Source: an uncultured Verrucomicrobiota bacterium
Lineage (GTDB): Bacteria; Verrucomicrobiota; Verrucomicrobiia; Opitutales; Opitutaceae
Direction: 5' to 3'
NCBI GenBank assembly: GCA_903960515.1
Contig: CAJCBL010000082.1
Coordinates: 1-55,324 of the forward strand
Length of the DNA: 55,324 nt
Numbering within the stretch: the first letter of the stretch is position 1; each line of letters opens with the position of its first letter. A program made the position numbers and the translations under genes. The notes under the pieces were generated by a model, which saw nothing but the letters and a program-made list of their open reading frames with translations, searched no databases and was not told the origin of the DNA. Positions 1 to 6,852 of the stretch are shown here, piece after piece.

Positions 1-10
1 AGGCATCCCC

Positions 11-682
11 TTGAAAGACGCGAAAGCACGCATCATTGAGTACGTTCGCAAGCGCTTTTGCGAATTTGAGTCAGATGGTTTCTCCATCTTCGCTCGTCTC
101 CCAAGCGGGAATACTGCGCGGTATGTGTGCGGCTTTATGGCGCTTCCAGATGCTCAGAAAGATTTGATTCGCGACGCCATCGCCATGCGTTCAGCTCAAT
201 GGTGGGGGTATCCTTATGACTATCGTTCAGCTGAGCCATGCGTGAAGGCTTTTGATGAGTTTACCCGGATGACTCCATTCCCATGGGATGTCGTGCGGCA
301 TGGCGAAAAGCGTGCGCCCGTGGCGCAAATCCGAAAAGCAGCAAAGCTGATGTTTGGACAGTTGTTTGGCTGTTCTCCCGTAAAGAGCCTTGAACCAGGC
401 GACTGGTTTTATAGTGGCGCCATTACGGCGACTCCAGTGGTTGTACGAATACGGTATTCCACACGGATGACGCCGTTGTCGTATGGCATGCGCATCAATG
501 AAGTCGGTGACTATTACAGTTTCACGTTAGAGAATCTGTTTGGGATGGGACTTGGTGATTGGGATAACATTATGCTTGGCGAAGAAGATCAAGCTTGCGC
601 CCTTTTGCGTGACACGATTTTGACCGGAGTGAGCGAGTGTCTTGAAATCTCGCGAATTGTCGGGAAAAATCACATTACCTAA
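11..682 (+). CDS. Hypothetical protein, possibly 5'-truncated
   Basis: The open frame begins with TTG at position 11, has no stop codon between it and the window edge, and so may start outside the window. As drawn it gives 223 residues, rich in aromatics (for example QWWGYPYDYR near residue 60 and GDWFYSGAITATP near residue 130). It has no obvious signal peptide or membrane segment. I recognise no family. The stop TAA at 680-682 lies just upstream of an intergenic element (701-756) that recurs after two of the next genes. Base composition is visibly less GC-rich than the rest of the window, which fits an accessory island. The reading frame is convincing because of its length in AT-richer DNA, but the function is unknown. 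Confidence 0.6.
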   Translation: MKDAKARIIEYVRKRFCEFESDGFSIFARLPSGNTARYVCGFMALPDAQKDLIRDAIAMRSAQWWGYPYDYRSAEPCVKAFDEFTRMTPFPWDVVRHGEKRAPVAQIRKAAKLMFGQLFGCSPVKSLEPGDWFYSGAITATPVVVRIRYSTRMTPLSYGMRINEVGDYYSFTLENLFGMGLGDWDNIMLGEEDQACALLRDTILTGVSECLEISRIVGKNHIT

Positions 683-700
683 CCAGTCACTACACAGAAC

Positions 701-756
701 GCCGGGAAGCGAATCCATTCCATCCCCTGGGGCCGCCCCCCGCCATCTCTAACCTT
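701..756. repeat. Intergenic cassette-like element, copy 1
   Basis: A spacer of about 56 bp opens with GCCGGGAAGCGAATCCATTCC and closes with CTAACCTT directly before an ATG. The same opening (CCGGGAA, GAATC, TTCC) and the same closing motif recur at 1289-1350 and 2526-2580. The GGAA/TTCC pair can form a small hairpin. Confidence 0.55.
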
Positions 757-774
757 ATGCCGCCAACTGCAACC

Positions 775-1263
775 ATGAAGCACACAAGTACACTCGCCAA
801 ATGCGCCATCATCTCATGCCTGATCGTGCTCGCACCTACATACCTTCCAGCACAGGGCTTGATCATATCCTCCAATATCGCAGTCGCGAACCCACCGAAA
901 CACATCACAAAATCACAGCCGAAAGCTGCGGATTTCAATGCGATATTTAGGGGATTTCTGGAAACAGAATATGTCGATGTAGGAAAAGAAACCATCGCCC
1001 CCGAGTTGATTGAACTATTAAAAAAGGAGACGTCAAATGGCTTGTACGGTCGCCTAAAGATCAAAGAATCAAAAGCCGAAGGAGCAATAAGGGTTACCGC
1101 CTTGACCATTGACAAAGAACAGATCGTGGCCATATCGGCCCGAGTCATCTACCAGCATTCCTTCAAAAAGACCCTATTGTCGGAATACATACATATTGTG
1201 TTTTCATCGAATGGATCCTTTAAAGAGGTCCGCAAAGGCCAAAGTACCAAACAGGAAATGTGA
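775..1263 (+). CDS. Exported hypothetical protein
   Basis: The product is 162 residues long from the ATG at 775. An in-frame ATG at 757 would add six residues ahead of the lysine, so 775 gives the better signal peptide. Residues 1-27 form a typical Sec signal: a basic start (MKHT), then a hydrophobic run through IISCLIVLAP, with likely cleavage near LPAQ. The mature part has no recognised domain and no Cys pairs. It is probably periplasmic or secreted. It lies between two copies of the intergenic repeat and shares the lower GC content of its neighbours. No function can be assigned. Confidence 0.6.
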   Translation: MKHTSTLAKCAIISCLIVLAPTYLPAQGLIISSNIAVANPPKHITKSQPKAADFNAIFRGFLETEYVDVGKETIAPELIELLKKETSNGLYGRLKIKESKAEGAIRVTALTIDKEQIVAISARVIYQHSFKKTLLSEYIHIVFSSNGSFKEVRKGQSTKQEM

Positions 1264-1288
1264 AGGCCCGCCAGCGACCAGAGCGAGC

Positions 1289-1350
1289 GCCGGGAAAGAA
1301 TCGCTTCCTTCGGAATTCTCTGGTGCCCGGCGTCCCTCATCCGTAAACTT
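1289..1350. repeat. Intergenic cassette-like element, copy 2
   Basis: This 62 bp copy opens with GCCGGGAAAGAATCGCTTCC and closes with CCGTAAACTT. The outer arms CGCCGGG (from 1288) and CCCGGCG (near 1326) are inverted repeats, so this copy could fold into a longer hairpin than the others. It sits between an exported protein and a lipoprotein gene on the same strand. Confidence 0.5.
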
Positions 1351-1361
1351 TGGGCAAATAT

Positions 1362-1937
1362 ATGCGTCGGCTATTCATCATATCGGTTATCGCTCTAGTC
1401 GGCTGTACAACAAGGCCGGCGGCGTCTGCTGCGTATCAGGTGCGCGGTAAGCCAGTCTTCACGATTACGTCCTGCGAATCGCACCAGGGAGATCCGCGAG
1501 AAGAGAACGGGCACTTCTTTTGCATCGAAGAACGGGTACCAAATTCAGCAAGTCCGTGTGTCACCGGCTATGAAATAAGAAAGGGAGTGTTAACAGACGT
1601 TGTCGGCGGTGGGACTGATGGCTCCGAAAAGCTCTTGGGCCGACTACGAACTATCGGTTTTGCTCCTTTCGATTTCTACAGTGAGGTAAGAGCGATCAAT
1701 CTACGCGAGTCCCAGAAAGCAGATACTCAAGGGGAGCGATTTGTGCCACCGATGGTGTTAGATGGAGGTTACTACGAGATCACTTACGATTTCGACGGCG
1801 TACATTTTCATATTCAAGGACATGAGCCGGGCTACGACATCGATTTCTATGCCCAGTACAGTCCGAAGATCGCTAAGCTTAAGGCATTGCTTGATCTATT
1901 CTCGGAGTACTATGGCCGAGGGAAGCTCAGAATATGA
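1362..1937 (+). CDS. Predicted lipoprotein of unknown function
   Basis: From the ATG at 1362 the protein has 191 residues. MRRLFIISVIALVGC is a lipoprotein signal with the lipobox LVGC, and Cys15 is the likely acylation site, which predicts membrane anchoring. A TTG at 1350 is possible but would only add MGKY. The mature part contains two or three further cysteines (residues about 35-60) and a C-terminal stretch of alternating Tyr, Asp and His (near residues 125-150). No family is recognised. It belongs to the same run of small co-oriented genes as its neighbours and is the third gene of the island. Confidence 0.65.
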   Translation: MRRLFIISVIALVGCTTRPAASAAYQVRGKPVFTITSCESHQGDPREENGHFFCIEERVPNSASPCVTGYEIRKGVLTDVVGGGTDGSEKLLGRLRTIGFAPFDFYSEVRAINLRESQKADTQGERFVPPMVLDGGYYEITYDFDGVHFHIQGHEPGYDIDFYAQYSPKIAKLKALLDLFSEYYGRGKLRI

Positions 1938-2042
1938 TAACGAGGGCCAACCAGACATCACATCCAAAGACTCTGTGATGCCCGGTTTCCAATCACTGCC
2001 AACCGCCCGGCGTGGCACACCTGAATCTTTCGCCAAATTATC
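1938..2042. other. Spacer with a weak match to the cassette element
   Basis: This 105 bp spacer contains GCCCGGTTTCCAATCACTGCC at about 1980-2000, which aligns loosely with the opening of the 701, 1289 and 2526 elements. It lacks the CTAACCTT closing motif. It may be a decayed copy, but I cannot be sure. Confidence 0.2.
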
Positions 2043-2537
2043 ATGCATGTCCGCGTTCCAGACGAGCTCAAAGCTGCGTTTGCAAGAGAGATCCGCCGAA
2101 ATCGTTTGAGTTCATCGTTTCGGCTGTATGTTCCCATCGTCCTAATCTTCTTCGTCGTCGGATACCTCGGTCTCGCATGGAAAGGACATCCGATAATATA
2201 TATCCTCTCGAAGATCCTAGGCGACAGTGTTCCCGAAAGCCGACTCCTTCTATACATTACCGTGTCCACTGCGACCATTTCTGCTCTCGGCGCGTTATTG
2301 TTCCTACGGCATTTGGTGACAAAGGAACTATTTGAGGATTTCCCCTACTGCGCGCGCTGTGATGCGCTCGACTACGACGAGATCGGAATATGTTCCTGTT
2401 GTAGGTCTCCACTTATTGGGAGGCATTCCTTCTTTTACCTTGAATTTGAAGATGAGCGGAAGACTATTGAATCATTCGGATTGAAAGAAATAGAAAAAAT
2501 GCCCGACCCAGTCTCTAAAGAAAACTCCGGGAAGTGA
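2043..2537 (+). CDS. Membrane protein with C-terminal zinc-ribbon-like motif
   Basis: The protein has 164 residues. Two hydrophobic segments (residues about 29-46, YVPIVLIFFVVGYLGLAW, and about 68-91) predict two membrane passes. A cytoplasmic-looking tail follows, with paired cysteines CARC and CSCC (residues about 103-120) spaced like a small zinc ribbon. The N-terminal MHVRVPDELKAAF is amphipathic and basic. The family is not recognised. The stop at 2535-2537 overlaps copy 3 of the intergenic element. Zinc binding is inferred only from cysteine spacing. Confidence 0.6.
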   Translation: MHVRVPDELKAAFAREIRRNRLSSSFRLYVPIVLIFFVVGYLGLAWKGHPIIYILSKILGDSVPESRLLLYITVSTATISALGALLFLRHLVTKELFEDFPYCARCDALDYDEIGICSCCRSPLIGRHSFFYLEFEDERKTIESFGLKEIEKMPDPVSKENSGK

Positions 2538-2580
2538 ATCCCTTCCCTCGACAGAGTCCGAGCGCGACGTCCCTAACCTT
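2526..2580. repeat. Intergenic cassette-like element, copy 3
   Basis: This 55 bp copy opens with TCCGGGAAGTGAATCCCTTCC and ends with CCCTAACCTT. It overlaps the last codons and stop of the preceding gene, so its 5' end is also coding. Confidence 0.55.
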
Positions 2581-2610
2581 CAATGTCCGCGAGACTTTGC
2601 TCTATGCTTT

Positions 2611-2865
2611 ATGCCACTTGAGATTCCCAAACAAGATACCGAAGAGATCGTCCACTCCCTGAAGAGATACTTCGCTGCAGAGTTGGACCAAGAACTCAGC
2701 GACCTGCAAGCAAAACTGCTCCTGGACTATATACTTAAGGAGATCGCCCCTTTCGCCTATAACCAGGGAGTGAAGCATGCGGAAGAGTATTTCCGCGCCC
2801 GGGTGGAGGATTTGCCGGCGACCGTATTTGAGGAGGGAATGACATATTGGCGGAAAAAGAAATGA
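2611..2865 (+). CDS. DUF2164 family protein
   Basis: This 84-residue cytoplasmic protein matches my recollection of the DUF2164 pattern: an N-terminal helix, then the acidic core YFAAELDQELSDLQAKLLLD, then the conserved IAPFAYNQGVKHAEEYF (residues about 48-64), and a charged C-terminus. The usual family length is about 80 residues. Biochemical function is unknown. The start ATG at 2611 has no clear ribosome binding site. An upstream ATG at 2583 is in a frame that stops after 12 codons. It follows the last copy of the cassette-like element. Confidence 0.8.
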   Translation: MPLEIPKQDTEEIVHSLKRYFAAELDQELSDLQAKLLLDYILKEIAPFAYNQGVKHAEEYFRARVEDLPATVFEEGMTYWRKKK

Positions 2866-2913
2866 AAGCCCCCGCAAAGATCAATCAGCAAGAAGTCCAC
2901 TTGCTTTTGTGCC

Positions 2914-3198
2914 ATGGATGGGGACACGCTTGTTCTAAATATCCTCGGAACCCCCAGCGCAGGAAAGGATGCTATAGGAAAGCCGAAAGGGGCTCAGCTC
3001 AGAGTGAGCGTAACGGCCGCCCCGGTGGCTGGCAGAGCGACCGAGCATATGGTTCGATTTCTCGCCGAAGAGTTCGGCGTGGAAACCAATGCCATCGCGG
3101 TAGAATTTGGCCGTTTCAACATAAACAAGCAGTTGCGCATCACGGCACCAAAGCGGCTGCCTCCCGTTGTGGCCAAGGCTCTAGTGAAGAGCGGATGA
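2914..3198 (+). CDS. DUF167 (YggU-like) family protein
   Basis: The protein has 94 residues, normal for the family. It shows the DUF167 landmarks: LRVSVTAAPVAGRATEHM (residues about 29-46, family signature near VxAPPVxGKAN), then LAEEFGV and a final KQLRI strand. These are small cytosolic alpha/beta proteins of unknown role, commonly found beside unrelated genes. The start ATG at 2914 is the only good one. It lies 48 bp after the DUF2164 gene and may be co-transcribed with it. Confidence 0.85.
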   Translation: MDGDTLVLNILGTPSAGKDAIGKPKGAQLRVSVTAAPVAGRATEHMVRFLAEEFGVETNAIAVEFGRFNINKQLRITAPKRLPPVVAKALVKSG

Positions 3199-3626
3199 CT
3201 CCATACAGTCGACCCAGTCCGGACACGAGGCCCGACCCTACAAACGGATTGAAGCGGCACGGCTCAGGCGTGGGGCCATGGTAGTTGAGCCCGGAAACGG
3301 AAGTTCAGACTGGTCACAGAGGTAGAGGAGAGGCGGGAGGAGATCACAGAGAAGCGCTTGGAGAAGCGAACCCGGACACCGAGGCACTTTCCCAAATGAT
3401 GAGCGTTTCGGTCGGCGGGCGTTCAGCGTTCTGCGTTCAGCCTTCGCCCTTGTGCTCTCATGCCCTAGCTCTGTGTTCTCTGTGTCCAACTGCTCTGTTT
3501 AGTTTGAGGGATTCGGCGCACAGGCGGGCGCTGGCCGGAGACAGTTCCAACTCCTGTTTCGCAAGGACATACAAAGGAGGTCGCCTTCGGGGTTGCGCGG
3601 GGGGCGGGTTGGGGCTCTCGTGCGGC
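3199..3626. other. Intergenic region with CACAGAG-type direct and inverted repeats
   Basis: No convincing gene is present. Between about 3310 and 3500 the motif CACAGAG occurs twice on the plus strand (GGTCACAGAGG, GATCACAGAGAA) and twice on the minus strand (within CTCTGTGTTCTCTGTGTCC), so the block could pair with itself. A strong Shine-Dalgarno-like AAAGGAGGT lies at 3573-3581, but the nearest in-frame start for the downstream methyltransferase is TTG 3609 or GTG 3627, farther away than usual. Confidence 0.4.
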
Positions 3627-4691
3627 GTGCGTTCATTCACCCGCAGTTCCGACGACCAGATCCCGCCTCCCTCGCCCCGCCCTGCTGCCCAGGCCCCGCG
3701 CCCCGCTGCTCAGGCTCCTCGATACTCCGCCCACGCTGACCCGCGCCCCGCCGCGCCGGCTGGCCCGCGCGAGTCGTATCGCAGCCAACCCCGCGATTTC
3801 AACCGCGACCAGCCCCGGGAGTTCACACGCGAGCAACCCCGCGATTTCACCCGCGAGCAGCCCCGCGATGCGGCTCCCCGACCTGCACAACCGCGCGTAT
3901 CGTCCGAAGAGCGACTCCGCGAAATCCCGGTATGCGGGCTCACCGCAGTGAAGTCGCTGTTCGAGACCCGGCCGACCGCGATCAAGCGCCTGTTCTTTGA
4001 TCTGGCTACGGGGCGGCGGGTGGGCGGTATCAGCGGCTATCTGGCAGGCCAGCGGAAGATCTACCGCCAGGTGCTGCCGGAGGAACTGGAGAAGATCGCC
4101 GGCACCGTGCACCATGGCGGCATTGTCGCCATCATCGACCAGCCAGCGCTGAGGACTCCGGCGGCCGAGGATCTCTCGCGCTGGGCTAAGGCGGGCAAGC
4201 CGGTGGTGCTGCTGGACCGTATCGGCAACGCGCACAACCTGGGCGCCATCGTGCGCACTCTGGCCTTTTTCGGTATCGAAAACCTTGTGGTGGCGGCGGG
4301 CGAGAGCGCGGCGCGCCCGGGGGAATCGAGCTACCGGGTGGCCGAGGGCGGCATGGAGCATGTGCAGGTGTGGGTGGCGGCCGATTTCGCCGGGCTGTGC
4401 ATGGAGTTGCGTGCTGCGGGTTTCGCCGTGGTGGGCACAGCGGTGCGCGGGCCGGAGCTGCGAGCCCTGCGCCGCGACGAGTTTCTCCCCAAACCCACCG
4501 GTAAGGATCCCGTGGGCACAGTGAAGCGGCCGATCGCGCTGGTGCTGGGCAACGAGGAGGCCGGACTGGCCCCCGACGTGGCGCAGGCCTGCGAACGGCT
4601 GGTACGTATCCCGGGCGCGGGCAAGGTGGAGTCGCTCAACGTATCCGCCGCTACAGCCGTGCTGGTGGCGGCGTTGATGGTGGGCAACTGA
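3627..4691 (+). CDS. TrmH/SpoU family rRNA or tRNA 2'-O-methyltransferase (YfiF-like)
   Basis: This SPOUT enzyme transfers a methyl group from SAM to a ribose 2'-OH in rRNA or tRNA. An N-terminal substrate-binding domain (from IPVCGLTAVKSLF, residues about 95-165) contains HHGGIVAII. The SPOUT fold follows with its three motifs: RIGNAHNLGAIVRT (near residue 195), LVLGNEEAGL (near 305) and GKVESLNVSAATAVL (near 335). The layout resembles E. coli YfiF more than RlmB. Residues about 10-85 are a low-complexity Pro/Arg/Asp linker with octapeptide repeats of the type QPRDFTRE. The GTG start at 3627 is provisional, and TTG 3609 is an alternative. The stop TGA coincides with the end of a repeat element. 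The exact RNA target is not known. Confidence 0.85.
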   Translation: MRSFTRSSDDQIPPPSPRPAAQAPRPAAQAPRYSAHADPRPAAPAGPRESYRSQPRDFNRDQPREFTREQPRDFTREQPRDAAPRPAQPRVSSEERLREIPVCGLTAVKSLFETRPTAIKRLFFDLATGRRVGGISGYLAGQRKIYRQVLPEELEKIAGTVHHGGIVAIIDQPALRTPAAEDLSRWAKAGKPVVLLDRIGNAHNLGAIVRTLAFFGIENLVVAAGESAARPGESSYRVAEGGMEHVQVWVAADFAGLCMELRAAGFAVVGTAVRGPELRALRRDEFLPKPTGKDPVGTVKRPIALVLGNEEAGLAPDVAQACERLVRIPGAGKVESLNVSAATAVLVAALMVGN

Positions 4692-4826
4692 GCCGAAGCG
4701 CTTCGCTCACACCGCTTTGCGCTCGGGCAGTGGCCGCTCCCCCGGTGTCCGCCGTAGGAGCGTGCTTGCACGCGATCTGCGCCGAGAATCGCGTGCAAGC
4801 ACGCTCCTACCAAATCGGCGGGCGGG
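4689..4826 (+). repeat. Mobile-like repeat family, copy 1 (diverged ends), with 57-bp REP hairpin
   Basis: It starts at the methyltransferase stop (TGAGCC) and carries the internal blocks CACCGCTTTGCGCTC, GTGTCCGCC and a 57-bp hairpin at 4754-4810. The hairpin arms begin GTAGGAGCGTGCTTGCACG and pair over 23 bp around an 11-nt loop. The hairpin is nearly identical to 10843-10899 and similar to 49639-49695. The outer right end is poorly conserved here. Confidence 0.7.
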
Positions 4827-4844
4827 ACTGAGCGGGGTGACCGA

Positions 4845-4873
4845 ATAGGACCTATCCGACCGATAGGTCCTAT
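4845..4873. repeat. Perfect 12-bp inverted repeat (ATAGGACCTATC)
   Basis: ATAGGACCTATC and GATAGGTCCTAT are separated by 5 nt. The repeat lies between two genes that converge, and no T-run follows on either strand. Confidence 0.6.
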
Positions 4874-4896
4874 GGCGCGCCAAACAAGCCAGTGAG

Positions 4897-4916
4897 GCCG
4901 AGCTGGAGCTCGGCGC
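4897..4916. repeat. Palindrome GCCGAGCTGGAGCTCGGC
   Basis: This copy of a palindrome family is also present at 11413-11430 and 11477-11494, with a related form inside the 15-bp array at 8341-8505. It is intergenic. Confidence 0.6.
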
Positions 4917-4954
4917 GCCCAGGGGCCGCCGGCTCGCCGGGGCCGCTTTGGGCA

Positions 4955-4988
4955 AAGAAAAACGCCGGGCCTTGGCAGGCCCGGCGTT
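4955..4988 (-). terminator. Rho-independent terminator of rng
   Basis: Read on the minus strand, a perfect 12-bp stem (AACGCCGGGCCT with its complement, 4-nt loop) is followed by TTTTTCTTT. It lies about 125 bp past the rng stop, with another 9-bp hairpin (5018-5040) in between. Confidence 0.85.
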
Positions 4989-5112
4989 GAAGGATGGTGA
5001 CGTTGCCGGAGGGCACCGGCCCGGACATGAGGTCCGGGCCCTGCCCCGCTCAGCGAGCGAATCGGCCCGGACGCAGGGGTTCGCCCCCGCAATCCCACCG
5101 AATCGTGACCGC

Positions 5113-6852
<1,740 letters not shown>

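Follow-up and report, generated by a model that had tools for sequence, protein, structure and literature searches.

Integron gene cassettes each consist of a gene and an attC site; the integron integrase, IntI, excises them as circles and inserts them by acting on attC, whose bottom strand it uses in folded form. The boxes of attC sites and the bottom-strand rule are set out in the accessible parts of PMC7923331 and PMC11023631. A cluster of attC sites lacking an integron-integrase is called a CALIN in the accessible part of PMC9024848, and off-target insertion, loss of intI and rearrangement have been proposed as origins of such clusters (PMC8618304, available sections, which also report integrons in Verrucomicrobiota). 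In Xanthomonas, scattered CALINs lie at chromosomal places off the integron platform, some of them in strains that lack intI, and the part of PMC12444791 at hand describes their positions as relatively conserved across species. We found no work devoted to integrons of Opitutaceae among the matches listed for the open-licence literature, which does not prove that none exists.

We analyzed a stretch of 55,324 nucleotides (the window) that makes up contig CAJCBL010000082.1 of an uncultured Opitutaceae bacterium, whose draft genome of 379 contigs is denoted G000. The initial annotation had reported three recurring elements at 701-756, 1289-1350 and 2526-2580, separating small genes, and had likened the arrangement to a cassette array. 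The elements are present and mutually alike, and we consider it close to certain that they are attC sites with integron gene cassettes between them, as the likeness had suggested. With a profile built from the three copies, 28 more were located (E ≤ 0.1) in nine other stretches of G000; these and the scores of covariance model R2 argue against chance recurrence. Run over the whole window with filters off, R2 gave four significant matches (Table 1), the fifth-best having an E value of 0.82. The sites used for training had been picked for their likeness to the window, the first copies having been found through the window copies, and the training alignments (A1 and A4) held no window row. The three elements as first placed are thus the middle parts of sites 1, 2 and 4, with the outer ends cut off, and site 3, which separates genes C and D, had been overlooked. 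Each site lies directly 3′ of one small gene, so a missing link to gene boundaries, named beforehand as grounds for doubt, did not appear; the four genes and four sites also share one orientation, in line with the single gene direction claimed.

Table 1. The cassette array at the left end of the window (R2, covariance model; GC as fraction)
Feature	Position	Strand	Details
Cassette gene A	11..682	+	223 aa as listed; no Pfam match
attC site 1, eroded	677..769	+	36.5 bits, E 2.1e-7 (R2); after gene 11-682
Cassette gene B, exported-looking	757..1263	+	no Pfam match; GC 0.46
attC site 2	1265..1356	+	54.8 bits, E 2.9e-12 (R2); after gene 757-1263
Cassette gene C, lipoprotein-like	1350..1937	+	only a sub-threshold Pfam hint; GC 0.50
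attC site 3	1945..2035	+	43.9 bits, E 2.3e-9 (R2); after gene 1350-1937
Cassette gene D, membrane-like, runs into attC site 4	2043..2537	+	no Pfam match; GC 0.48
attC site 4, eroded	2501..2592	+	35.4 bits, E 4.4e-7 (R2); after gene 2043-2537
DUF2164 gene	2611..2865	+	PF09932, E 1.2e-23; GC 0.50

Many of the genome copies extend outward and end in a sequence like GCCGAAC on one side and like GTTCGGC on the other, at a distance of about 92 bases. Between these lie complementary inner arms (CAGAGA-A-CGCCGGG and CCCGGCGTCTCTG, the L″ arm carrying a single unpaired A), which form an imperfect palindrome with an unpaired base on one side. We take this R″-L″-L′-R′ layout to be that of an integron attC site. 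End boxes of the forms RYYYAAC (R″) and GTTRRRY (R′) occur at many genome sites and only partly at the four window sites. Pairing of the arms was examined in two alignments. In that of 27 sites (A1, drawn from 31 copies, with the three window sites and L011:13736-13826 left out), 33 cells had changed on both sides compared with 15.5 in shuffles (0/500), and sliding the partner by 1-3 columns lowered pairing from 85.7% to 35.8-44.7%. The alignment of 73 sites from three species (A4, matches at E ≤ 5e-5, with the window source, L108 and L109 not included) had both-side changes in 13 of 13 inner pairs and 186 such cells compared with 81 in shuffles (0/500), counts that lean toward the structure to which the alignment had been fitted. 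Fold energies are in general weak evidence here: over 54 G000 sites the median z was −1.05, and z was at or above 0 in 12, intact sites included.

A dispersed repeat of the REP or MITE kind, following small genes by chance and unconnected with recombination, would also have many copies, a palindromic build and a spread over contigs. The compensatory changes in the arms and the orientation of the elements with the genes in the window speak against it, and it is contradicted by the way in which the R boxes pair.

IntI cuts inside R′, so that the right-hand R′ of a site is part of the next cassette. If units were once circular, R″ is expected to match the opening R′ of its own cassette. In G000, R″ was perfectly complementary to the R′ of its own cassette in 19 of 41 units, compared with 7 of 41 when the two boxes of one site were paired (52 of the 54 sites entered the count; one site each on C191 and C216 was left out); a first run on 39 units had likewise given 19 and 7. 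At the four variable positions the cassette-wise score was 3.17 against a shuffled mean of 2.51, and none of 10,000 shuffles scored as high. This cassette-wise pairing is the mark of units that were once circularized.

The same rule appeared in relatives. Among 38 genomes, G000 counted, IntI over the curated cut-off was present in 12 and matches to covariance model R1 at E ≤ 0.01 in 17 (both counts taken from per-genome rows). In three of these genomes (G006, G014 and G021), attC sites begin less than 2 kb from IntI on the opposite strand, so that the covariance search in relatives proposed at the outset led, with the same model, to arrays beside an integrase. These arrays identify the element independently. 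Perfect pairing was found cassette-wise in 34 of 38 units and within the site in 7 of 38 for G006 and G014 together (16 kb of the G014 array was used, not the whole array), and in 19 compared with 2 of 26 for G021. G005, a single contig without IntI over the cut-off, gave 19 compared with 7 of 27; a first count for L198 had left out two weak matches and kept another, and on rerunning, all matches gave 19 of 27 and those at E ≤ 0.01 gave 18 of 24. The signal was weaker in G001 and G002, which belong to the same genus as G000 (8 compared with 3 perfect of 18; four-position score 2.72 compared with 2.67 within the site), in G002 partly because an inserted element splits several R″ boxes. The run behind this count and the 39-unit count for G000 excluded matches lying on the opposite strand at the same positions, as well as the partial match L106:6909-6985, and added the weak matches L012:1916 and L015:12083; L011:14347 had an E value of 0.04. 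With arrays adjoining IntI in relatives as well, the dispersed-repeat explanation is hardly credible, and we return to the elements as attC sites. R-box pairing can serve as a simple gauge of wear, running from 34/38 and 19/26 beside IntI through 19/27 in G005 to 19/41 in G000. The sedentary chromosomal integrons of G006, G014 and G021 thus resemble the G000 arrays in that the same models find their attC sites and the same pairing rule holds; unlike G000, they have IntI beside the array and better-kept pairing.

As a check for false matches, R1 was run on 51 of the 80 loci nearest to the window’s RNase-G-like protein (titles mostly Opitutaceae or Opitutia). It gave one match at E ≤ 0.05 in 0.81 Mb (L129, E 4.3e-4), which is possibly a real site.

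Measured on this gauge, the window sites are decayed, with 3, 5 and 3 of 7 positions pairing. Site 1 has an R″ box, ACCTAAC (677-683), and an unrecognizable R′, and its cassette-wise pairing with the next site is 3/7. Site 2 has kept its arms and has eroded R boxes (R′ TTTGGGC, 1349-1355). In site 3, R″ is GGCCAAC (at 1945) and pairs at 5/7 with the R′ opening its cassette, and site 4, with the box GCCCGAC (at 2501), pairs at 3/7. On the bottom strand site 1 folds no better than shuffles and site 2 has a z near 0; only site 3 stands out (z −2.9), and three of the four sites fold no better than shuffled sequence. The initial annotation had stated that attC core sites are absent. For the genome as a whole this was wrong, since many copies carry boxes of the GCCGAAC...GTTCGGC type; for the window it was half true, the four boxes just named being eroded and lying just beyond the limits drawn for the elements. 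A search of window positions 1-6000 against Rfam gave only matches under the gathering scores. The window sites are probably inert now.

The base composition of the small genes also sets the array apart, as had been claimed: GC is 0.50 over 1-2600, compared with a mean of 0.65 and a minimum of 0.565 in 2600-base stretches sampled from 2915 on. The window start is a contig end, and the true start of gene A may lie to its left. For genes B and C, the ATG codons at 775 and 1362 are the likelier starts because the listed ones fall inside sites 1 and 2, respectively. PADLOC gave no match for the five window genes, and no solved structure was found for the DUF2164 protein. R2 found no attC match after the DUF2164 gene anywhere in the window; this gene is probably the last cassette gene, its own attC gone. 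It is followed 3′ by a DUF167 gene and then by high-GC genes that we presume to be rlmB-like and RNase-G-like. The DUF2164 gene had no match in G001, G002 or G005, and the rlmB-like locus of G002 (14 kb) had no significant site (best E 0.41) and a different upstream neighbor. These two comparisons suggest that the array in the window is a lineage-specific addition.

Further copies, which the initial annotation had proposed to look for, proved numerous. R2 found at least 54 attC sites at E ≤ 0.1 on 12 of the 379 contigs of G000, and R1 found at least 49 at E ≤ 1; these site counts are lower bounds, as only the 113 or 150 top candidates from a first look were scored in each genome. In the window, every unit has a single gene oriented like its site (four genes, four sites); counted as forward ORFs of at least 80 aa, such genes occur in 23 of 39 G000 units, and the other 16 had none that long. 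Followed in the direction of the arrays, the blocks run into at least 4.9 kb of other sequence on C82, C84, C114, C189, C270, C288, C318 and C350 and start after flanks of at least 4.9 kb on C84, C187 and C363. The flanks are unrelated to one another, and several carry housekeeping genes; the proteins encoded there include thiamine-phosphate kinase and sigma-54 (C84), glutamate-1-semialdehyde aminomutase (C114), valyl-tRNA synthetase (C189), a methionyl-type tRNA synthetase (C270) and ketopantoate reductase (C350). The blocks therefore occupy at least eight separate places, barring assembly errors at many points. Ends and starts are unbalanced (eight versus three), and a repeated cassette at contig breaks may hide some array starts. 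Comparison of the G000 array loci with those of G001 and G002 gave only four short or weak protein matches, the flanks being short and the genomes drafts.

The integrase search proposed in the initial annotation found no IntI (TIGR02249) over the cut-off in the G000 draft assembly. The best three G000 matches lack the extra stretch found in 12 of 12 IntIs of the relatives (the C191 recombinase lay outside the alignment); we take them to be XerC-like and XerD-like proteins and a phage-type recombinase. A complete integron has intI and attI beside the array, and no TIGR02249 match over the cut-off was found in G000. The four window sites, in an assembly with no recognized IntI, fall in the CALIN class, an absence that is provisional in a draft. 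With at least eight blocks and no recognized IntI, the arrays are CALINs by definition.

It is possible, if somewhat doubtful, that G000 is not truly without an integrase and holds one or more ordinary complete integrons, with intI and attI having dropped out during draft assembly. Arrays do break at contig ends, a repeated cassette stands at several of the breaks, and drafts are said to overstate CALINs in the accessible part of PMC9024848. However, the eight blocks have different flanks, and one lost intI cannot adjoin them all. The congeners G001 and G002 also have no IntI over the cut-off, with at least 17 matches on nine contigs and at least 22 on eight contigs, respectively. Moreover, G005, in a single contig, has two blocks (3.326-3.335 and 3.908-3.913 Mb) plus two isolated sites, again with no IntI over the cut-off.

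That three species of the genus have no IntI over the cut-off, yet many intact and perfectly pairing sites, could also mean that another tyrosine recombinase now moves the cassettes. A candidate gene (Phage_integrase) adjoins an attC site and the start of an X-like cassette on C191 (L024, 1200-1286 and 1474-2523). This is a single case of neighborhood, however, and the protein has generic Phage_integrase domains that lend no support to attC recognition; we regard this explanation as very improbable. A wider version, slightly less remote and still improbable, is that, in a genus that lacks intI, cassettes continue to be inserted at species-specific loci, through a non-IntI recombinase or through visiting IntIs on mobile elements, so that the arrays are scattered islands and not one platform.

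The reading that we prefer is that a past IntI excised and inserted units through the folded bottom strand, as the pairing pattern suggests. Insertion away from the platform would have produced scattered blocks, which then decayed. The integrase may have been present in the past, may act in trans or may lie in a stretch missing from the draft. Off-target insertion by IntI is in our view the likeliest cause of the scattering, at about even confidence. On this reading, the window would begin inside an array and hold its old far end: four eroded sites, probably the DUF2164 gene and then chromosome.

Set against the described systems, the locus is like a CALIN in having a series of attC sites around small genes with no IntI nearby or in the assembly, and differs in that G000 carries at least eight blocks and that the boxes of the window's far-end block are heavily eroded. 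Like the Xanthomonas CALINs, the G000 arrays lie away from any integron platform; in contrast to the relatively conserved positions described in the accessible part of PMC12444791, the flanks compared were not shared with the two congeners. The cassette and CALIN type is known; the Opitutaceae instance, dispersed over loci for which no sharing was seen and with no integrase detected, is new. What looked like an odd repeat thereby becomes legible as a record of captured genes in a phylum that has been little studied, and every unknown gene here can be handled as a cassette that was captured. The dispersal over loci for which sharing within the genus was not seen, with no integrase detected, also makes CALIN formation testable.

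Several further features were observed along the way. The repeated cassette, X, is about 300 bp long without a clear ORF (L010 13845-14150; also twice on C270 and on C363, C130, C114, C191 and C288). It has eight whole or partial matches in G000, 83-100% alike, often at array starts and contig ends, and none in G001 or G002, and it may be the reason why the assembly is broken. We considered whether X is a promoter cassette or an RNA cassette, and Rfam gave nothing above gathering. One intact G000 site had no PLSDB plasmid match by blastn. The C318 array is interrupted by a DDE transposase gene (DDE_Tnp_1, DUF4372; L093 1975-3258), and by eye, partial direct repeats can be made out on both sides of the C191 recombinase. 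Among the IntIs of the relatives, 11 of 12 (L026-L036) have about 80-130 extra N-terminal residues compared with L025, lengths that are possibly overstated because first in-frame starts were used.

The element that splits R″ boxes in G002 measures 300-326 bp (L103 ~580-906 and ~2580-2906; L104 ~3830-4163). Its three copies are 98-99% alike, and more ends lie at L103 146, L107 110 and L106 ~6982. The end pattern has four occurrences in G002 and none in G000, G001, G005 or G006. Its ends and its place suggest a small group IIC-attC-type intron without reverse transcriptase. Rfam gave no match for it (E 0.1; E 10 for the stretch alone). The name also draws on the accessible part of PMC7923331, which describes insertion at R″ in the opposite orientation.

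Within the window, the intergenic stretch at ~3280-3510 matches many places in G000, G001 and G002 and is a dispersed repeat of the genus. At ~4755-4810 there is a long, by eye perfect-looking hairpin (AGGAGCGTGCTTGCACGCGAT... and its complement), and a similar one lies upstream of the start of the C84 array.
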